NCBI GenBank assembly: GCA_947497245.1
Contig: CANMFO010000005.1
Location: 186,001 to 250,000 of the forward strand
Direction of reading: 5' to 3'
From: an uncultured Flavobacteriaceae bacterium
GTDB taxonomy: Bacteria > Bacteroidota > Bacteroidia > Flavobacteriales > Flavobacteriaceae
DNA length: 64,000 nt
The position numbers and the translations under genes were made by a program. This document shows positions 14,769-32,307 of the stretch, piece after piece (the stretch's first letter is position 1; every line of letters starts with the position of its first letter). Under the pieces are notes generated by a model. It did no database searches. It was given only the letters and a program-made list of their open reading frames with translations, and was not told the DNA's origin.

Positions 14769-17700
14769 ATGGAAAGAAAGTATTTCTTAATGTTATTTTT
14801 AATGGCGTTCAGTACAATATTGGTCGCCCAGGAAAAAACAGTAAACGGTACGGTCGTTGACGGGCAGGGTGTTCCGTTACCGGGAACGAGTATTGTGGTC
14901 CAAGGTACTACCAACGGAACGCAGACCGATTTTGACGGAAATTATGCGATTGAGGTATCGGAAGGACAGGTTTTGGTCTTTTCCTATGTTGGTTTTGCCC
15001 CACAAAACATTACCGTTGGCGGCGCTTCTACTATAAATATTGTTCTACAGGAAGATGCTTCCCAGTTGAACGAGGTTGTCGTAGTGGGCTATGGAACCCA
15101 AAAAGTGGTCAACCTTACCGGTTCGGTAGAAACGATCAAGGGTACGGAACTGACGCGTCAACCGGTCTTTCAGACATCACAAGCACTGGCTGGCCTGGCA
15201 CCGGGCCTAGTGGCCACGCAAACTAGCGGGCAACCCGGTTCGGACGGTGCGACCCTTAGGATCAGGGGCATTGGAACTTTGGGGAACGGGAACAAGAACA
15301 ATCCGTTGATCTTGGTGGATGGCATTCCGGACAATATCAACGGAGTGGATCCAAACGATATTGAAAGTGTATCCGTGCTAAAGGATGCCTCCGCCGCGGC
15401 AATTTACGGATCCAGAGCGGCAAATGGGGTTATTATTATCACCACCAAAAGGGGCAAGGCCGGGAAAGTGAGTGTTTCCTATGATAGCTATGTAGGTTTC
15501 AATAAGGTGACCCAGAACCTGAACTTCTTGGATGGGTTGGGGTATATTGAAAACATAAATGTTGCCAATCCCGGTACCTATGATGACGCTTTTGTTTCCA
15601 ATTATGCAGTAAACCGGGGAACCGATGCGGCCCCCGATACCGATTGGGTCGATGAGGTGTTTTCGAGAGAGGGTTTTCAGCAATACCATCGCTTGAGCGC
15701 GAGCGGGGGTTCGGAGAAAGTAAGGGTGGCCACGTCCATTTCCTTTATGGATCAAGACGGCAATATCCCCAATTTCAATTTCAGCAGGTACAACGGTCGG
15801 TTCAATACGGATATCAAACTGAGCGAGAAGTTCGATGTAAATTTCGACCTGAACTTTAGGAGGTCCGAACAGCGCGACCCTTCTGCCGGACTTAACGAGA
15901 TTACCCGTCAGGCCTATCGAATACCCCCATTGTTTACCGCTGTTAACGAGGATGGGTCATTCGGTCCGGGATGGAACGGGCAGAACCCCGTTGCCGGAGC
16001 TTTGGTCGGGGGAACGGATTTTAGGCAGTTCAATTATTTTAGGGGACTGTTGAAAGTGAACTACAGACCGATCGAGGAACTGGTTGTTTCCATGTCGTAC
16101 GCCCCACAGCATACCGATAATTTTAGAAAGGACTTTAGGGCCCAATACGATTGGGTCGATCTGTCCCAAAGCGGAACCTTTCCGAACGAAAACCGACTTT
16201 TTCAAGAAAACTCCAGGGGTTTTCAGGACAACTTCAATGTAATTGCCAACTACGATAAAAGTTTTGGGGGTCATAGTTTTGGTGCGGTTCTGGGGTATGA
16301 ATTCTTAAAGAATACCTCTTCCAGCTTTGATGCGCAGCGGAGAAACTTCGTACTTCAGGAATTCCAGCAACTGGACAGTGGAGACGCCGACACCCAAGAA
16401 AATGGTGGGGAAGAGACCGTCAATGGACTGGAATCGGTGTTTGGAAGGGTCAACTACTCCTATAAGGATAAATATTTGTTCGAGGCCAACCTAAGGCGTG
16501 ATGCCAGTTCCCGTTTTGCTCCTGCTTTTAGGGCCGACTGGTTTCCATCGTTTTCTGTCGGATGGACCGTTTCCAACGAACCGTTCCTGATCGATTCCTC
16601 CACCCTGTCCTTTTTGAAGCTAAGGGCTTCCTGGGGGCAATTGGGGAACCAGAACATTTTTGACAATGATGGCAACCCCATAAATTTTGCGTATGTCTCA
16701 ATATTTGGGGTCGGAACAGAAAATCCGGTTATTGGCGGTGGTCCCATTACAGGCGGCGCACAGACCGTTTTGGCCAATAGGGCGATACGATGGGAAAGTA
16801 CTACCACTTCAAATTTTGCGGTGGACGCCAAGTTTTTGGACAATAGGTTGTCCCTTACGGGGGAGTACTACGTTCGTACAACCGATGACATCTTGCTGCA
16901 GGCCAGCACGGTGCCCTTGTCGGTTGGTTTCACCGCACCCGTTCAAAATGTGGGCAGCGTAGAAAACAAAGGATGGGATTTGGCACTGGATTGGCAAGAT
17001 ACGATCGGATCGGATTTTTCCTACGGCCTCAATTTTAATATTTCCGACTATGAGAACGAAGTCACTGATTTGGGCGAGCTCGATGAACTTCCCCCTGAGA
17101 ATGGTACCATTGTTAGGGTAGGGGAACCCATCAGTTCCATATTTGGCCTACAGAAAGTTGGCCTGTTCCAAAACCAGGAGGAGATCGATAATGCCCCCAC
17201 ACATGGTTTTGGACCTGTAGCTCCAGGAGATGTGAGGTATGCCGATACCAATGGGCGGGATGCCGATGGAAATTTGACGGGCCAGCCCGATGGACAGGTC
17301 AACAATGATGACCGGGCCATTATTGGAAATTCTTTACCCAGATTGAATTATGGATTGGACGTATCCGCCCGATATAAGGGATTGGATTTTTCCATTTCCT
17401 TTTTGGGGGTGGGCAAGCGCGACATCATACTTCAGGGAGACGCCGCTTATCCCTTTTTCAATGCGGGAAAGATACAGCAGTGGCAAACGGATGCCTGGAC
17501 GGCCCAAAATACCGGAGCGAAATATCCGAGGTATACTCCCGGGAGCAGCCATAGCAACTGGAGAACCAGTGAGCAATGGTTGTTCGATGCATCGTATTTG
17601 AGGGTCAGGAATATCGGCCTGGGGTACTCATTGCCGGACAAAGTGCTGGAAACGCTGAAAGTCAATAGTTTAAGGATCTATGTATCCGGACAAAATTTGT

Positions 17701-17813
17701 TCACTTTCGACAATCTTCCCGAAGGTATGGATCCCACTATTCCCAACTTCACCTCTGGTGGTTTTTACCCCATAACGTCTACCTATACTTTTGGATTGAG
17801 TGTAAGCCTATAA
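14769..17813 (+). CDS. SusC/RagA-family TonB-dependent outer-membrane transporter
   Basis: This outer-membrane transporter imports oligosaccharides or glycosides together with the SusD partner downstream, using TonB energy. The 1014-aa protein has a Sec signal ('LMLFLMAFSTILVAQ'), a carboxypeptidase-regulatory-like domain at about 24-100 ('VNGTVVDGQGVPLPGTSI'), a TonB-box-like 'NEVVVVGYGTQ', the plug domain with 'LRIRGIGTL' and 'LVDGIPDN', the SusC-typical 'SVLKDASAAAIYGSRAANG', and a large 22-strand-type barrel ending in 'TYTFGLSVSL'. Length is normal. The triple LacI-type operator stands upstream, and susD follows after 10 nt. Confidence 0.97.
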   Translation: MERKYFLMLFLMAFSTILVAQEKTVNGTVVDGQGVPLPGTSIVVQGTTNGTQTDFDGNYAIEVSEGQVLVFSYVGFAPQNITVGGASTINIVLQEDASQLNEVVVVGYGTQKVVNLTGSVETIKGTELTRQPVFQTSQALAGLAPGLVATQTSGQPGSDGATLRIRGIGTLGNGNKNNPLILVDGIPDNINGVDPNDIESVSVLKDASAAAIYGSRAANGVIIITTKRGKAGKVSVSYDSYVGFNKVTQNLNFLDGLGYIENINVANPGTYDDAFVSNYAVNRGTDAAPDTDWVDEVFSREGFQQYHRLSASGGSEKVRVATSISFMDQDGNIPNFNFSRYNGRFNTDIKLSEKFDVNFDLNFRRSEQRDPSAGLNEITRQAYRIPPLFTAVNEDGSFGPGWNGQNPVAGALVGGTDFRQFNYFRGLLKVNYRPIEELVVSMSYAPQHTDNFRKDFRAQYDWVDLSQSGTFPNENRLFQENSRGFQDNFNVIANYDKSFGGHSFGAVLGYEFLKNTSSSFDAQRRNFVLQEFQQLDSGDADTQENGGEETVNGLESVFGRVNYSYKDKYLFEANLRRDASSRFAPAFRADWFPSFSVGWTVSNEPFLIDSSTLSFLKLRASWGQLGNQNIFDNDGNPINFAYVSIFGVGTENPVIGGGPITGGAQTVLANRAIRWESTTTSNFAVDAKFLDNRLSLTGEYYVRTTDDILLQASTVPLSVGFTAPVQNVGSVENKGWDLALDWQDTIGSDFSYGLNFNISDYENEVTDLGELDELPPENGTIVRVGEPISSIFGLQKVGLFQNQEEIDNAPTHGFGPVAPGDVRYADTNGRDADGNLTGQPDGQVNNDDRAIIGNSLPRLNYGLDVSARYKGLDFSISFLGVGKRDIILQGDAAYPFFNAGKIQQWQTDAWTAQNTGAKYPRYTPGSSHSNWRTSEQWLFDASYLRVRNIGLGYSLPDKVLETLKVNSLRIYVSGQNLFTFDNLPEGMDPTIPNFTSGGFYPITSTYTFGLSVSL

Positions 17814-17823
17814 TAAAAAAAAA

Positions 17824-19623
17824 ATGAAAAAAACCAGTAAGATAATACCGTTTGTTTTGGCCCTGATTTCCATGGTGGCCTGTGAAGAAGAAGTTCTTGA
17901 TTTAAGCGATCCCGGGGCCCCTACCGATGTGGTCTTTTTTGAATCTGAAGATCAACTGGAGGTTGCTTTGGCCGGAATCTACGAAACCGTGAATTTTGAA
18001 CGAAGTGTCCCCTTTCCACAACATTTGGACCATACGACCGATTATGGCTTCAGTCGTGGCGATGTGGGGGGAACAGCTACCATAACCACCGGGGGCATGA
18101 CTTCCACCGACGGTTCTGCACGGGATCACTGGGCAAGATGGTACCAGGGCGTTCAACGCGCCAATAACCTTTTGACCAATATGGCAAAGGCCGAAGCGGT
18201 CTCCGACCCGGAAAGATTTGCCACGATACGAGCCGAGGCACTCGCTTTGAGGGCGTTTTGCTATGCCTATCTCACCGAACTTTTTGGTGATGTTCCGTAC
18301 CGGACCGAAATAGCCACCTCGTTGGAGGGTCTTGATGTGGGAAGGACCCCAAAATTGGAAATTGCGGCCAATATAATGGCCGATTTGGAAACCGCTGCAA
18401 ACGTGCTTCCGACAACATGGGGCGCCGGTGATAGAGGCAGGTTTTCCGCAATGGCGGCACACACCCTAAGAGCAAGGGTAGCACTGTACAACGAAAATTG
18501 GTCCGTTGCGGAACAATCCGCACAAATTGTAATGAACAGCGGCGCCTTTGGTTTGGACGCAAGCTATGAGGATTTGTTCACCGCCGGCGGAATCCAGTCT
18601 TCTGGCGAGGTCATTTTCGATCTTGCCTTCCAAAACGGTACCAACACGCACAATCTTGCACGACGTCAGGGAACCCGATTTGGTGGGTGGGCGCAGTTAG
18701 TGCCATCGCAACAGACGGTCGATTCCTATGAAACCACAAATGGATTGCCGATTGACGAGGATGCTGCATTTGATCCTGCCAACCCCTATGAAAATAGGGA
18801 CCCGAGGTTGAAGGCTTCGATTGTTGTGCCCGGTGAGGTCTGGACGAACCATATTTTTGAAACACATTCGGATAGCATAGCGACCACAAGAATTTCTGAT
18901 GGATCCAGGGTGTTGAACGTGAATTCTGCCGATTTTAGGGGAATTGCCAAGGTCGATCCCGTGAGCGGTCAGGAATTTACCACTTCGGGAGCCAATGAAT
19001 TTGGTGCCTATACGGGGTATAATTGGAAAAAATTCTCGGACGAACCCGCACTGATGGGAGATGGCAATGTCGACGCATCGGAACACCCGATTATCGTTAT
19101 GAGGTATGCCGAGGTACTTTTGATATTTGCCGAGGCCAAAATAGAAGCTGGCAATATAGATCAAAGCGTGTTGGACGCCATCAACGATGTCAGGGCCAGA
19201 GCCTATGGGACCACGCGCGGGGATATCGCCAACTATCCCTCCATAAGCAGCATGGATCAGACCGAATTGAGAAAAGTGCTACGGAGGGAGCGAAAAGTGG
19301 AATTTGCCAATGAGGGCCTAAGACTGTTCGATATTCGAAGGTGGCGAATTGCCGAGAAGGTTATGAACAGCACCTTATATGGATCCCCGGCCAATGGATG
19401 GGGCAATATTGGAGGTACCTTGAACTTTGTACCGAATATCGATGATGACGGTTTCATTGATTATAGCGGAGCTCCTTCCCAGCCCCGAAATATACTGGGC
19501 AACTTTGAATATAGGGAAGTTGAGGAACGGGTGTTCAATGCACAAAGAGACTATCTATGGGCCATTCCCCAGAGTGAGATCGACGCGACCAATGGGACCG
19601 TTGCACAAAATCCGGGATATTGA
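17824..19623 (+). CDS. SusD/RagB-family surface glycan-binding lipoprotein
   Basis: This is the lipoprotein that caps the SusC channel at the cell surface and binds the glycan. The 599-aa protein has a lipoprotein signal ending 'ISMVAC' (Cys20) and then acidic residues (EEEVLDL) that fit surface export. Typical SusD elements follow: 'FESEDQLEVALAGIYE', 'RANNLLTNM', 'EALALRAFCYAYLTELFGDV', 'EVLLIFAEAK' and 'LRRERKVEFANEGLRLFDIRRW'. The ATG is preceded by a ten-A tract and no Shine-Dalgarno site. It pairs with the SusC gene ending 10 nt before. The ligand cannot be read from sequence. Confidence 0.96.
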   Translation: MKKTSKIIPFVLALISMVACEEEVLDLSDPGAPTDVVFFESEDQLEVALAGIYETVNFERSVPFPQHLDHTTDYGFSRGDVGGTATITTGGMTSTDGSARDHWARWYQGVQRANNLLTNMAKAEAVSDPERFATIRAEALALRAFCYAYLTELFGDVPYRTEIATSLEGLDVGRTPKLEIAANIMADLETAANVLPTTWGAGDRGRFSAMAAHTLRARVALYNENWSVAEQSAQIVMNSGAFGLDASYEDLFTAGGIQSSGEVIFDLAFQNGTNTHNLARRQGTRFGGWAQLVPSQQTVDSYETTNGLPIDEDAAFDPANPYENRDPRLKASIVVPGEVWTNHIFETHSDSIATTRISDGSRVLNVNSADFRGIAKVDPVSGQEFTTSGANEFGAYTGYNWKKFSDEPALMGDGNVDASEHPIIVMRYAEVLLIFAEAKIEAGNIDQSVLDAINDVRARAYGTTRGDIANYPSISSMDQTELRKVLRRERKVEFANEGLRLFDIRRWRIAEKVMNSTLYGSPANGWGNIGGTLNFVPNIDDDGFIDYSGAPSQPRNILGNFEYREVEERVFNAQRDYLWAIPQSEIDATNGTVAQNPGY

Positions 19624-27938: not shown

Positions 27939-29732
27939 ATGCAAAAAATACGGATGCTTTTATGGATGTTGTTGGTTTCCGGAAGTATGATGTCGCAAAG
28001 CGATGTGTATGTGGAAACTGAAAGTTTTATCGAAAAGGGAGGTTGGGTGGTCGACCCCCAATTTGTGGAGCAGATGGGCTCTCCCTACCTCATGGCCCAT
28101 GGATTTGGGGAGCGTGTTGAAAACGCGTCCACTTCCGTACATTTTGAAAATACCGGGGAGTACCATGTATGGGCCCGGACCAAAAATTGGGTACCTGGTA
28201 GTTGGGACCCGCCAGGTATGTTCAAAATAATGATCAATGGAAGGGAGCTCGAAAAAACTTTGGGTACTTCCCCGGGATGGTCCTGGGAATACCTGGGAAC
28301 GGTGGTTTTACAAAGTGGAACGGTAGGAATACAACTGGTGGACCAAACCGGTTTTAACGGAAGGTGCGATGCCATTTATTTTTCCACTTCGGATACCAGG
28401 CCCCCAAATTCATTGGAGAAGCTGATGGAGTGGCGCAAAAAGATTACCGCCAAACCCGATGTCCCGGAACAGGAACAACGGTACGATCTGGTCGTGGTCG
28501 GGGGAGGTATTGCCGGATGTGCCGCCGCCATCGCAGCGGCCGAGCAAGGCCTGAAAGTGGCCTTGATTCACGACAGACCTGTTCTGGGCGGAAATGCCAG
28601 CAGCGAGATTCGCGTGCATACCCTGGGCATTTACGGCCATTTCGAGCGCATACTAAAAAAACTGGATACGGAGCATTACCCCAATGGGTCGGCCGAGGCC
28701 AAAAAGGACCAGGAAAAGCGCGATAACAATGTCAAAAGTTACGCCAACATCGACCTGTACCTGAATTGGCGGGCTTATGATGCCGCAGCGGAAAATGATA
28801 CGGTACGCCATGTTGATGCGGCGAACACCAGTTCCGGTAAAAGAAAACGATTTTCCGCGCCCTATTTTGTGGATTCTACCGGAGACGGGTGGATCGGATA
28901 TTGGGCCGGGGCCGAATTTTCGTACGGCCGTGAAAGTATGGACACCTATGGCGAGGAATGGGAGGAGTGGGGAGAACTATGGAGCCCCAAAGAAGCAGAC
29001 AATGCCGTGATGGGGTCCTCGGTTTTATGGGGTTCGAAGGAAACCGAAACAAAACAGGATTTTCCCGAAGTTCCATGGGCCATGCCAGTGGCCAAGCAGC
29101 ACGAAGAGGTAAATGGGGAATGGCAATGGGAGTTCAGTCGAAACGACCTCAACCAGATCGATGATGCAGAAGAAATACGCGACCACATGCTCAGGGCGAT
29201 ATACGGATCCTTCGCCAATGCAAAAAAGAACCCTGAAAATGCCACGCGTAAGCTCGAATGGGTCTCTTATCTGGTGGGCAAAAGGGAATCGAGAAGATTG
29301 GTCGGCGATCATATATTTACCTTTAACGATGCAAAGGCCGGAACCAAGTTCCCCGATGCTGTCGTAATTGAGACGCGGGAGGTGGATGTACATTATCAGA
29401 CCGTTTTGGAAGATGCGGAAAACCCCGATTTCATCTCCGAGGCGCTATTTTACAAAACCCCGAAATATTACATTCCGTATCGGAGTCTTTACTCAAAAAA
29501 CATCAATAACCTCTTTATGGCCGGAAGAAACTTCAGTACCTCCCACGCTGGATTGGGAGGCCCGAGGGTTATGCGGACTACCGGCCAAATGGGTGCGGCA
29601 GTGGGTCTTGCAGCCTCGCTTTGTAAAAAATATGATGTCAACCCACGGGAAATTTATACGGGTTATCTCAACGAATACTTGAAGCTGATAGAGGCACAAA
29701 AATATGTTGGAATACCGGAATCCAAAAAATGA
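27939..29732 (+). CDS. Exported FAD-dependent oxidoreductase (PF12831-like) with N-terminal beta domain
   Basis: The 597-aa protein starts with a Sec-type signal ('LLWMLLVSGSMMSQ'; no twin arginine). A beta-rich segment at about 22-150 follows ('GEYHVWARTKNWVPGSWDPPG'), resembling carbohydrate-binding or golvesin-like modules. Then comes an FAD Rossmann domain with 'VVGGGIAGCAAAIAAAEQG' (G188-G193) and 'RPVLGGNASSEIRVH'. The C-terminal flavin motif is 'LFMAGRNFSTSHAGLGGPRV'. The family oxidises unknown substrates. Its stop overlaps the start of the flavinylation-motif gene by 4 nt, so the two probably work together outside the cytosol. The gene at 35494 is a cytosolic paralog. Confidence 0.8.
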   Translation: MQKIRMLLWMLLVSGSMMSQSDVYVETESFIEKGGWVVDPQFVEQMGSPYLMAHGFGERVENASTSVHFENTGEYHVWARTKNWVPGSWDPPGMFKIMINGRELEKTLGTSPGWSWEYLGTVVLQSGTVGIQLVDQTGFNGRCDAIYFSTSDTRPPNSLEKLMEWRKKITAKPDVPEQEQRYDLVVVGGGIAGCAAAIAAAEQGLKVALIHDRPVLGGNASSEIRVHTLGIYGHFERILKKLDTEHYPNGSAEAKKDQEKRDNNVKSYANIDLYLNWRAYDAAAENDTVRHVDAANTSSGKRKRFSAPYFVDSTGDGWIGYWAGAEFSYGRESMDTYGEEWEEWGELWSPKEADNAVMGSSVLWGSKETETKQDFPEVPWAMPVAKQHEEVNGEWQWEFSRNDLNQIDDAEEIRDHMLRAIYGSFANAKKNPENATRKLEWVSYLVGKRESRRLVGDHIFTFNDAKAGTKFPDAVVIETREVDVHYQTVLEDAENPDFISEALFYKTPKYYIPYRSLYSKNINNLFMAGRNFSTSHAGLGGPRVMRTTGQMGAAVGLAASLCKKYDVNPREIYTGYLNEYLKLIEAQKYVGIPESKK

Positions 29733-30847
29733 GGTACCAAGTCTGGATCATAGCATTGTTTTTTATGGCCACGGGTTTTTCCCAGTCTGGCCTCCCAACC
29801 GCTGTTTCCGATAGTTCCCGGAATAAAGGGCTGATCCGGAGACCGGAATTCTATATCCTGGATTGGAAGCGCGGGACACAACTAAAACGCAAACCGACCA
29901 CCATCTCCATCATAGTGGACTCCATTGGTCTGCAAGGGGTCGATGCACTTGTTGATGTGGCGGGCCGTCCCGTACTGTACGCCTCGGACATTTCCACTCC
30001 CGTTTGCGCGGATGGAGAATGCAGATTGATGCACATTCGATTGTACTGGACCTTATTGGGCCATTATGCCGGGTTCGACCATTATCCAAGCTTTCCGTTT
30101 ACCAAACACGATCACGACGAATTTCAATCTGCCGACTATTTGAAGTTGCACCAGCTGCTCATGGACAACAATTCCATACTAAAACGTAGGAAAGTGGAGG
30201 AACTGGTGGACAAGCCGATAGCTCCAAAAAAGGATGGAGCGGATGCCGTGGCCGGAGCTACCATAACAGAGGTCAAGGAATCGATCGTGACCGGGGCGCT
30301 CTATTCCTGCTATACGGCATGGCATTTGGTCCACGGAGGGGTTAGGGAGCAAATTAAGCGGCGCACCCTTTCGATGATGGACGACAATATGTTCCTGCGG
30401 ATGTTGGATTCCAATAATCCAGAGTACCAATTGTTCGCCCTCAAAAGGTTGAACAAAGAACAGTACGAAGAAAACTATAAGGTAATTGCCGAAGTTTTTG
30501 AATCGGGGATTCCCTTGGTACGCACTTTTATTATCAAAAACCTGCCAGCATCCTTTTGGGATTCCCAAGAATGGCAAAGACCCTTTTGGGAATGTTTTGC
30601 CAAAATTGATATCAACAGTCGTAGCCTGTTGCTGAATCACCTGGGCAAGTCTCCTGAAACCGTTTTGGAGGATATTTCCAAACAGCTTGGGGCAATGACC
30701 AAAAACCAATTGAAAGTGTTTTTGGGGCATTTGGCGTCCCTGGATGGGGTCAACCCCTCCATTTGGAACAATCTAAGGGCCTTTTCAAATTCCAAGGCTG
30801 AGGCCAACGCGTATATCGTGACCCATTTTTTGGAAGATCATGAATAG
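29729..30847 (+). CDS. Exported protein with FMN-binding/flavinylation-like motif
   Basis: The 372-aa protein has a signal peptide ('IIALFFMATGFSQ'). Residues 172-180 read 'DAVAGATIT', close to the D-x-x-(S)-G-A-T-x-T site where ApbE attaches FMN to a threonine in FMN-binding domains (here T178 or T180). The usual Ser before GAT is Ala. Residues 93-98 carry a Cys pair (C93, C98). Nearby are 'IRLYWTLLGHYAGF' and the His-rich 'TKHDHDEF', and after the motif comes 'SCYTAWHLVHGG'. The C-terminal 160 residues look helical and HEAT-like. It is translationally coupled (4-nt overlap) to the exported FAD oxidoreductase, so it may accept electrons from it. No apbE gene is in the window. Function is inferred. 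Confidence 0.6.
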   Translation: MRYQVWIIALFFMATGFSQSGLPTAVSDSSRNKGLIRRPEFYILDWKRGTQLKRKPTTISIIVDSIGLQGVDALVDVAGRPVLYASDISTPVCADGECRLMHIRLYWTLLGHYAGFDHYPSFPFTKHDHDEFQSADYLKLHQLLMDNNSILKRRKVEELVDKPIAPKKDGADAVAGATITEVKESIVTGALYSCYTAWHLVHGGVREQIKRRTLSMMDDNMFLRMLDSNNPEYQLFALKRLNKEQYEENYKVIAEVFESGIPLVRTFIIKNLPASFWDSQEWQRPFWECFAKIDINSRSLLLNHLGKSPETVLEDISKQLGAMTKNQLKVFLGHLASLDGVNPSIWNNLRAFSNSKAEANAYIVTHFLEDHE

Positions 30848-30867: not shown

Positions 30868-32307
30868 ATGATTTCATTTTTACTTTCCATTGTTGTTCTG
30901 ATTCTTGGATATTTCCTTTATGGAAAGTTCATAGAAAAAATATTCGGGATAGACCCGGAAAGGGAAACCCCGGCCATACGTCTTAGAGACGATGTGGATT
31001 TCGTCCCCTTGCCAACTTGGAAGATTTTCTTGATCCAATTCCTGAACATTGCGGGCCTGGGGCCTATTTTTGGTGCAATTGCAGGTGCCATGTTTGGGCC
31101 AGCCGCTTTTTTATGGATCGTTTTGGGCAGTATCTTGGGGGGAGCGGTGCACGATTACCTGTCGGGAATGTTGTCCGTGCGGCACGACGGTTTGAGTATT
31201 AGTGAAATCGTGGGGATCTACCTCGGAAACAATATGAAGCAACTTATGCGACTCTTTACCATTGTACTTTTGATTTTCGTGGGCACTGTTTTTTTGATGG
31301 GCCCCGCTAAGATTATCGATGGCATGACGGCCAATATATGGAATCTTTGGGGATGGGTCGGCATTATCTTGGCGTACTATGTCCTTTCTACCTTGCTTCC
31401 CATTGATAAAATGATAGGAAAACTATACCCCATTTTTGGCGTAGCCATGCTATTGATGGCGGTAGGGCTATTGCTTGCATTGTTCTTTGGGGATTACCAA
31501 ATTCCGGAACTTGTTCCATCGAACCTTCGGAATATGACCACCGACCCGGAAACAACACCACTGTTCCCCATACTTTTTGTGACCATTGCCTGCGGTGCAA
31601 TATCGGGCTTTCACGCGACCCAATCGCCCTTGATGGCGCGCTGCATGAAGAATGAGCGTCTAGGAAGGAAGGTGTTCTTTGGAACCATGATCACAGAGGG
31701 TGTGGTTGCTCTTATTTGGGCCGCGGCCGCGATGACCTTTTTTGGAAATGTGACCGAACTGAACCAGGCAATGCTGGCCAATAATAATAATGCGGCCTGG
31801 GCGGCAAACGAGATTTCCCTGAATATGTTGGGCGGTTTTGGAGGTATTCTTGCCCTTTTGGGTATCGTGGCGGCCCCTATCACCTCGGGTGATACAGCAT
31901 TTCGTTCGGCACGCCTTATTTTGGGGGATGTTTTTAAAAACGATCAAAGCAGGGCAATGAACCGATTGATCATCAGCATTCCTCTTTTTTTAATAGCATT
32001 TGCACTTACCCAAATCGACTTCGGAATTATTTGGCGCTATTTCGCATGGAGCAACCAGACCTTGGCGACCGTGGTGCTTTGGACAATTACCACTTATTTG
32101 ATCCATGAAAATAAGGCCTATTGGGTTACTTTGTTTCCTGCCTTGTTTATGACCATGGTGTGCAGTACGTATATTTTGATTGCCCCGGAAGGGTTTCATT
32201 TGCCCAACAACATAGCCTATTTAATTGGGTCATTGGTGACCCTGGGCATCACGGCCCTATTTTGGATCCATATCGCACAAAAGAAAAAACTAATAGTAGG
32301 ACAATGA
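30868..32307 (+). CDS. CstA-family carbon-starvation carrier (short form)
   Basis: This polytopic inner-membrane protein of 479 aa has many hydrophobic segments and CstA (PF02554) signatures: 'FLIQFLNIAGLGPIFGAIAGAMFGP', quoted here in two parts as 'FLIQFLNIAGLGP' and 'IFGAIAGAMFGP', then 'GGAVHDYLSGMLSVRHDG', 'GFHATQSPLMARCM' and 'APITSGDTAFRSARLI'. E. coli CstA is about 700 aa; the shorter form without the C-terminal extension is common. CstA proteins transport pyruvate or peptides. Inside a glycan locus it may export or import a small organic acid product; this is inference. It overlaps the sulfatase start (ATGA). Confidence 0.88.
   Translation: MISFLLSIVVLILGYFLYGKFIEKIFGIDPERETPAIRLRDDVDFVPLPTWKIFLIQFLNIAGLGPIFGAIAGAMFGPAAFLWIVLGSILGGAVHDYLSGMLSVRHDGLSISEIVGIYLGNNMKQLMRLFTIVLLIFVGTVFLMGPAKIIDGMTANIWNLWGWVGIILAYYVLSTLLPIDKMIGKLYPIFGVAMLLMAVGLLLALFFGDYQIPELVPSNLRNMTTDPETTPLFPILFVTIACGAISGFHATQSPLMARCMKNERLGRKVFFGTMITEGVVALIWAAAAMTFFGNVTELNQAMLANNNNAAWAANEISLNMLGGFGGILALLGIVAAPITSGDTAFRSARLILGDVFKNDQSRAMNRLIISIPLFLIAFALTQIDFGIIWRYFAWSNQTLATVVLWTITTYLIHENKAYWVTLFPALFMTMVCSTYILIAPEGFHLPNNIAYLIGSLVTLGITALFWIHIAQKKKLIVGQ

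Follow-up and report, generated by a model that had tools for sequence, protein, structure and literature searches.

Two adjoining genes in a 64,000-nucleotide stretch of DNA from an uncultured Flavobacteriaceae bacterium (GenBank assembly GCA_947497245.1, contig CANMFO010000005.1, positions 186,001 to 250,000; the whole stretch is hereafter the window) encode an exported flavin adenine dinucleotide (FAD) oxidoreductase, P0001, and an exported protein of a family without a name, P0002. This pair is a real, conserved two-component unit, as is strongly supported by genome context. We infer, with a probability of roughly 0.77, that P0002 is flavinylated by ApbE and acts as the redox partner of P0001, such that flavin mononucleotide (FMN) would be held covalently on P0002 and electrons would be transferred between the two proteins. 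Our best reading is that P0002 founds an undescribed family of ApbE substrates, in which an FMN carrier with a HEAT-like scaffold serves the exported PF12831 enzymes of sugar loci. A reading of the sequence alone had proposed that the pair forms an extracytoplasmic flavin electron relay acting on a carbohydrate. The relay is supported by the evidence presented herein, with covalent FMN, electron transfer, and the carbohydrate substrate as its conjectural parts.

The pair and its parts, all on the forward strand, are as follows.

27939..29732, forward: P0001, exported PF12831 FAD oxidoreductase, 597 amino acids (open reading frame, Pfam)
27939..27998, forward: Sec-type signal of P0001, about 20 residues, twin Arg absent (hydropathy, by eye)
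28017..28349, forward: N-terminal domain of P0001, weakly Golvesin_C-like (weak PF25275 match)
28485..29669, forward: FAD_oxidored (PF12831) catalytic domain of P0001 (Pfam)
29729..30847, forward: P0002, predicted FMN-carrying partner, 372 amino acids, family without a name (open reading frame, relatives)
29951..30358, forward: conserved motif domain of P0002, residues 75-210 (116 domains, 81 of them non-redundant)
30005..30022, forward: Cys pair C93 and C98 (kept in 116 of 116 relatives)
30242..30268, forward: DAVAGATIT, predicted flavinylation motif, residues 172-180 (by motif; a host FMN_bind protein has DALAGATIT)
30260-30262, forward: predicted acceptor T178 (alignment)
30368..30844, forward: predicted HEAT-like repeat domain at the C terminus of P0002, all-helical, residues 214-372 (AlphaFold model)

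A conserved pair of exported proteins

As the sequence-only reading had proposed, P0001 is a PF12831-like FAD oxidoreductase, with residues 183-577 matching this family at an E value of 5.8e-67 (227 bits against a cut-off of 27; profile positions 1-412 of 416). The overlap of four nucleotides claimed for the two reading frames is also present, in that the stop of P0001 and the start of P0002 have the bases ATGA in common. P0001 is 72-78% identical to the enzyme partners in five close relatives. Its N-terminal domain resembles PF25275 below the cut-off (E 0.014; 15.9 bits against 31.6), and PF25275 matches at E <=1 occur in nine of 16 relatives (best 0.0029). Three matches of this domain to solved structures (E 0.39-0.71) were not convincing. 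Perhaps the domain might serve as a glycan-binding module.

The pairing was examined around 116 distinct open reading frames for P0002 relatives, located at 46 same-family places, at locus L011, at five phylum-wide places, and on 60 stretches (64 genes) from f24 and f19, the families of genomes G618 and G591, which were drawn from about 114 strong places (E <1e-50). Genes were called PF12831-type by a profile built from eleven partners, with Pfam itself run on part of them. A same-strand gene of this type abuts 109 of the 116 relatives (gap <=350 nucleotides), and inclusion of L089, whose start was miscalled in the count and whose true gap is 22, brings the number to 110. Co-occurrence of the two genes in other genomes had been set beforehand as a test of the proposal, and these 110 same-strand neighbors among 116 relatives pass it. 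The FAD gene is upstream of the P0002 relative in 74 of the 109 pairs and downstream in 35, and the pairing is kept even at 21-34% protein identity and in reversed gene order. Because the host genome has few full-length PF12831 genes (three, among 15 matches), chance adjacency of the pair is negligible. Six relatives are unpaired (L011, L135, L211, L229, L020, and L087); the relative at L011 starts at the contig edge, and at L135 an apbE gene alone lies between the P0002 relative and the FAD gene. On plasmid p1 of Flammeovirga kamogawensis, a gene annotated 'FAD-dependent oxidoreductase' is followed from the next base on by a 'hypothetical protein' and then by a sulfatase.

The distances of the two proteins correlate, with r 0.82 over the 109 pairs and r 0.86 over 60 pairs in the class of P0001; in either case none of 2000 permutations did as well, and the correlation in part reflects host phylogeny. 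The enzymes fall into size classes that differ in the presence of twin arginines (RR) within the first 40 residues. RR occurs in all 22 partners of 450-490 amino acids and in 24 of the 25 of 626-670 amino acids, where the exception (L218) appears to belong, in extended form, to the class of up to 625. It is found in none of the 61 partners of this last class, which is that of P0001 and in which one start (L067) was miscalled. One further partner is longer. Taken together, the two classes that resemble substrates of twin-arginine translocation (Tat) have RR in 46 of 47 members. This split between size classes indicates that the unit is exported by seemingly both Tat and Sec routes, with P0001's class using Sec. 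The proposed Sec export of P0001 thus holds for its size class. The signal sequences of P0001 and P0002 were assigned by eye and hydropathy, by which the N terminus of P0002 is hydrophobic and signal-like.

Relatives of P0002 are numerous and unevenly spread. A single-sequence search matched nine of 99 near genomes, the host's own included, but none of the nine further genomes from the genus of the window; the pair is therefore patchy. A profile found relatives in 39 of the 397 same-family genomes searched and, once weak matches were removed, in eight of 395 genomes of a phylum-wide draw (G513 and G540 dropped as HEAT-only or weak), in 50 of 150 genomes of f24 (G917, G884, G925, G856, G910, G872, G938, and a second piece next to a G923 gene dropped), and in 15 of 150 genomes of f19 (G963, G1046, G1048, and one weak G1043 place dropped). 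Named hosts include Kriegella aquimaris, an Ulvibacterium metagenome-assembled genome (MAG), a Flavobacteriales MAG, and F. kamogawensis. Other phyla were sampled for close relatives only, together with viral contigs and plasmids. Four viral stretches fitted the pattern and none is a P0002 relative, and two plasmid records have P0002 matches, those of Flammeovirga and of Persicobacter, the latter known as a match only.

The predicted flavinylation site and linked apbE genes

The exported P0002 with its DAVAGATIT and C93/C98 was found as the sequence-only reading had described it. The published minimal flavinylation motif is D-x-x-[S/T]-G-A-[S/T], for which seven residues are enough, and flavinylation is abolished when T is changed to A, is lowered by changes to G or A, and is little affected by changes to D (PMC12052999). 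DAVAGAT fits this motif with A at position 4, and the broader pattern D-x-x-[STA]-G-A-[ST] would be expected by chance about 0.003 times per 372 residues, assuming ordinary residue frequencies. When the 116 motif domains are aligned, the acceptor column holds T in 115 and S in one, the D column holds D in 115, and the A column before the acceptor holds A in 112. Both T180 and T178 had been named as candidate sites. The alignment favors T178 as the acceptor and not T180, whose column has T in 12 of 116 relatives only. The other conserved features of the motif domain are C93/C98, W107, G111, and F132, which precede the flavinylation loop, and a helix that follows it.

Independent support that was not available to the sequence-only reading comes from the presence of apbE in the clusters of relatives. 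A same-strand apbE gene lies within 3 kb of 26 of the 116 relatives (24 loci), in layouts that include P0002-FAD-apbE, FAD-P0002-apbE, and FAD-apbE-P0002. PF02424 confirms the linked gene in all 23 genomes searched (of 24), and the genes at L134 and L135 were confirmed by hmmscan (E ~1e-78). In 17 of these 23 genomes there is no PF04205 match. The 22 f24 genomes with linkage have 2-6 apbE matches each, and we therefore estimate chance linkage at well below 1% per gene. The clusters at L182 and L197 each contain one apbE for two P0002-PF12831 pairs, which belong to different classes.

The host genome has two apbE genes. The first is near nqr-type genes (named by eye), and the second is in a cluster with Rieske, thioredoxin-like, and DUF3570 genes (L253:7418-11628). 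The latter arrangement resembles the DUF3570/thioredoxin clusters described in PMC8238504.

The C-terminal domain of P0002 is predicted to be helical and HEAT-like. Its AlphaFold model has a predicted local distance difference test (pLDDT) score of 80-91 in blocks over residues 240-372 and of 65-71 over residues 220-239. The closest fold match is alphaRep (E 0.008), with none at E <=0.001, and by sequence the domain matches 2db0 (E 0.0089).

Proposed electron flow and competing readings

In the mechanism that we propose, P0001 would be exported and would bind FAD in the periplasm, where its substrate would be a sugar or a piece of glycan, which it would most likely oxidize. P0002 would be exported alongside, and ApbE, supplied in trans in the host genome and encoded within the cluster in some relatives, would attach FMN covalently to T178. 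The FADH2 of P0001 would be reoxidized by this FMN, which would pass electrons toward the respiratory chain, and the HEAT-like domain might be the docking part. We give even odds to the proposal that P0001 oxidizes a carbohydrate.

Neighboring genes offer some candidates for further steps. At L187:8714-11824 and L193:8661-11768, the genes for a roughly 460-residue FAD enzyme, a P0002 relative, and apbE are followed by one for a protein of 1035-1036 amino acids whose domains are DUF7133, HEAT repeats, and cytochrome c. It is possible that this protein is the next electron acceptor. A scan for CXXCH found the motif in 14 of 930 open reading frames (<1300 amino acids) in the 111 loci examined, four of them in clusters with the short FAD enzyme type, and revealed no general acceptor. 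An AP_endonuc_2-type (xylose-isomerase-like) protein is encoded near the pair in four loci, including L195:1377-2315 (Pfam) and L187 (by eye). The AP_endonuc_2 fold is that of sugar isomerases and also of 3-keto-glycoside lyases, and such a protein could act on the oxidized sugar.

The flow might also run in reverse, with membrane electrons passing via P0002 to P0001, which would then reduce a substrate outside the cytoplasm in the manner of the flavinylated fumarate- and urocanate-reductase-like enzymes. The described flavinylated PF00890-type FAD enzymes are reductases fed by the respiratory chain (PMC8238504), and we count in favor of reverse flow the nucleotide-binding stretch that P0001 has in common with flavocytochrome c3. 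This likeness is limited to residues 180-221, and the PF00890 match of P0001 (37.1 bits; cut-off 20.4) is likewise confined to residues 183-220 (profile 1-38 of 414). However, the pair resides in sugar-catabolic loci with SusCD, GH31, sulfatases, and an SSF transporter, for which oxidation is the simpler explanation. The cytochrome c-DUF7133-HEAT gene that comes next in two clusters and the AP_endonuc_2 genes in some also count against reverse flow, although none of these points, the sugar-catabolic setting included, fixes the direction. On balance, we consider reverse flow unlikely.

Several observations weigh against the reading of P0002 as a flavinylated redox partner, whichever way the electrons move. 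Position 4 of the motif is S in 66, A in 28 (P0002 among them), and T in 22 of the 116 relatives, and the G column has G in 100, S in 15, and A in one. The three FMN_bind proteins of the host all have A at position 4 as well (DALAGATIT, from the FMN_bind protein of the nqr-type cluster, DGIAGAT, and DAIAGAT), and A before GAT is therefore normal in this lineage. No apbE gene adjoins the pair in the window, and linkage hardly extends beyond a single family: in f24 it concerns 25 of the 52 genes examined, and elsewhere L135 alone. ApbE has other substrates in f24, since 12 of 14 genomes there that lack a P0002 match carry apbE as well. Among the unpaired relatives, the enzyme gene at L211 is 3.1 kb away, and no PF12831 gene is in view at L229 or beside the short forms at L020 and L087. 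Furthermore, no electron-transfer genes stand out among the commonest neighbor clusters of the 111 loci.

Searches for a known family or fold belong with these contrary points. P0002 matched no Pfam family at E 10, including PF04205 (cut-off 22 bits), DUF2271, and DUF3570, and no NCBIfam model at E 1. Among the weak Pfam matches of the 81 non-redundant motif domains, PF04205 comes first (27 domains, best E 0.0088; the next family has 3). Five of the ten relatives viewed in detail matched it at 13.5-15.8 bits, below the cut-off, and in three of these five the match extends past the motif on its upstream side (profile 22-62, 35-65, and 38-62 of 77). NCBIfam gave 21 families with one member each for 34 relatives, with RnfG- and NqrC-type models at E 0.12. 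When hhalign was used with an alignment of the host group's FMN_bind proteins (21 of 32 sought), 16-18 columns around the motif aligned with a probability of 75-83% (reversed controls <1%). Only the motif aligned, and we therefore do not claim common descent with PF04205. AlphaFold was run on mature P0002 and on the motif domain alone (four sequences each), and the motif domain reached a mean pLDDT of 43 alone and blocks below 45 in the full model. The low-confidence model (pLDDT 43) has a strand-strand-strand-helix-loop-helix order, and Foldseek found nothing for it at E <=0.001 (best E 0.86) and no FMN_bind title among the best 50 of 235 matches. We set aside three candidate relatives of the motif domain, namely 8p2b ('Clostridiaceae bacterium FMN4 domain 1'), a solved structure that ranked third with E 0.19 over the motif region, and the repetitive Ika8 (E 0.0088) and Ika4 (E 0.06), which look like chance matches. 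Given PF04205 scores below the cut-off, an hhalign match to the motif only, and an unusable model of the motif domain, we do not count P0002 as an FMN_bind member. It is probably an ApbE substrate of an unnamed family.

These same points could indicate that the motif is unflavinylated and that P0002 is a subunit of the enzyme with a structural or regulatory function and some other role for its T-loop. The absence of a significant PF04205 match, of fold support, and of apbE beside the pair in the window, and a linkage found mostly in one family, would all fit. In contrast, the acceptor is T or S in every one of the 116 relatives and the D is kept in all except one, in-cluster apbE accompanies 26 of them, and most of the genomes concerned (17 of 23) have no PF04205 match. 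We regard a P0002 without flavin as quite improbable. It is least probable of all, and indeed very unlikely, that P0002 is flavinylated and yet acts as an assembly or FAD-delivery factor for P0001 rather than as an electron carrier: the 61 enzymes without RR are probably Sec-exported, must gain FAD outside the cytosol, and could be helped by a flavin-bearing partner, but pairing is no looser in the Tat-like classes (47 of the 109 pairs with abutting genes, RR in 46), whose members should already be folded around FAD when they are exported, and ApbE transfers the FMN part of FAD irreversibly (PMC8238504).

The short P0002 relatives (L020:7840-8706 and L087:2916-3770) lack the C-terminal domain as well as a PF12831 neighbor. 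They adjoin, or are one gene away from, proteins with CXXCH (haem c type). A DUF5777 beta-barrel is encoded near the L087 form, and a di-haem oxidoreductase (PF06537) near the L020 form. In these short forms, the carrier domain likely has an alternative partner.

The sugar locus, known systems, and implications

The gene pair lies in a single-strand gene run from 14769 to 39409 whose gaps do not exceed 216 nucleotides, the largest being immediately 5' of P0001. The members of the run with their own coordinates, in addition to the pair, are as follows.

14769..19623, forward: SusC-like TonB-dependent receptor and SusD, in the same gene run as the pair
14769-17813, forward: TonB-dependent receptor with plug
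17824-19623, forward: SusD
30868..32307, forward: CstA-family transporter, directly 3' of P0002
35494-37776, forward: second PF12831 protein, in the same gene run

The order of the run is TonB-dependent receptor, SusD, FG-GAP/ASPIC protein, two GH31 proteins, P0001, P0002, CstA-type transporter, sulfatase, SSF symporter, second PF12831 protein, and GH31. The SusCD locus that had been claimed for this region is thus present on one strand, with a plug-bearing receptor, SusD, GH31, and sulfatase. The second PF12831 protein has 760 amino acids, no signal peptide, and 34% identity to P0001, and no P0002-like gene adjoins it. Across the 111 loci (4-22 kb), whose neighbor clusters were named by eye, SusC-type clusters are present in 57, SusD-type in 55, sulfatase-type in 37, and the CstA cluster in 17.

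Among known systems, the flavinylated fumarate-reductase-like systems (PF00890 with FMN_bind; fumarate, urocanate, and methacrylate reductases) are similar in that an extracytosolic FAD enzyme is served by FMN attached by ApbE. Published gene clusters of this kind include 189 in which the FMN_bind domain is encoded separately, no more than two genes from the enzyme (PMC8238504). Unlike these systems, P0001 matches PF12831 best and has a SusCD setting, and P0002 is below the threshold for PF04205, has an invariant Cys pair, and, judging by its relatives, usually has a C-terminal helical domain. A PF04205 domain in the enzyme or its neighbor characterizes that group, and none was found in P0002 or, by Pfam scan, in P0001. 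The FMN_bind proteins themselves (PF04205; NqrC, RnfG, and NosR) share with P0002 the seven-residue motif followed by a helix, and DALAGATIT differs little from DAVAGATIT. However, the inspected P0002 relatives are under the PF04205 cut-off, and the likeness is almost limited to the motif. DUF2271 and DUF3570, whose flavinylation has been shown (PMC8238504), provide a precedent for ApbE substrates with unnamed domains, an [S/T]GA[S/T] motif, and linked apbE, but P0002 has no Pfam match to either and the partners are other proteins.

P0001 in itself is a typical PF12831 FAD_oxidored protein of the kind encoded in sugar loci of Bacteroidota, and the novelty lies in its partner P0002. No acceptor for the exported PF12831 enzymes of sugar loci turned up in searches of the open-access literature. 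A term search of the main text of the 2021 eLife survey (PMC8238504) found no mention of PF12831 or FAD_oxidored, and a 2024 mSystems paper deals with other ApbE substrates. The pair was not reported in the title or at the start of the abstract of any of the open PMC matches listed, a scope that leaves supplements and subscription papers aside.

A partner of the P0002 type would give the exported FAD oxidoreductases of sugar-degradation loci an electron acceptor. Genome context strongly supports the view that the pair is a new version of ApbE-dependent extracytosolic electron transfer. P0002 and its relatives are a candidate ApbE-substrate family that surveys relying on PF04205 only would miss, as its Flammeovirga member, annotated as a hypothetical protein, illustrates. 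The question of whether glycan breakdown feeds the respiratory chain outside the cytoplasm becomes directly testable, and clusters in which enzyme, carrier, and apbE occur together provide ready-made expression units. We tentatively suggest, as a speculation that we hold to be somewhat doubtful, that many Bacteroidota sugar loci have a modular extracytoplasmic dehydrogenase, in which an exported PF12831 enzyme oxidizes glycans, or sulfated or keto forms derived from them, ahead of uptake, electrons reach respiration through a covalently flavinylated HEAT protein, and the motif domain represents a new ApbE-substrate fold. If this is true, glycan foraging would conserve energy already in the periplasm.

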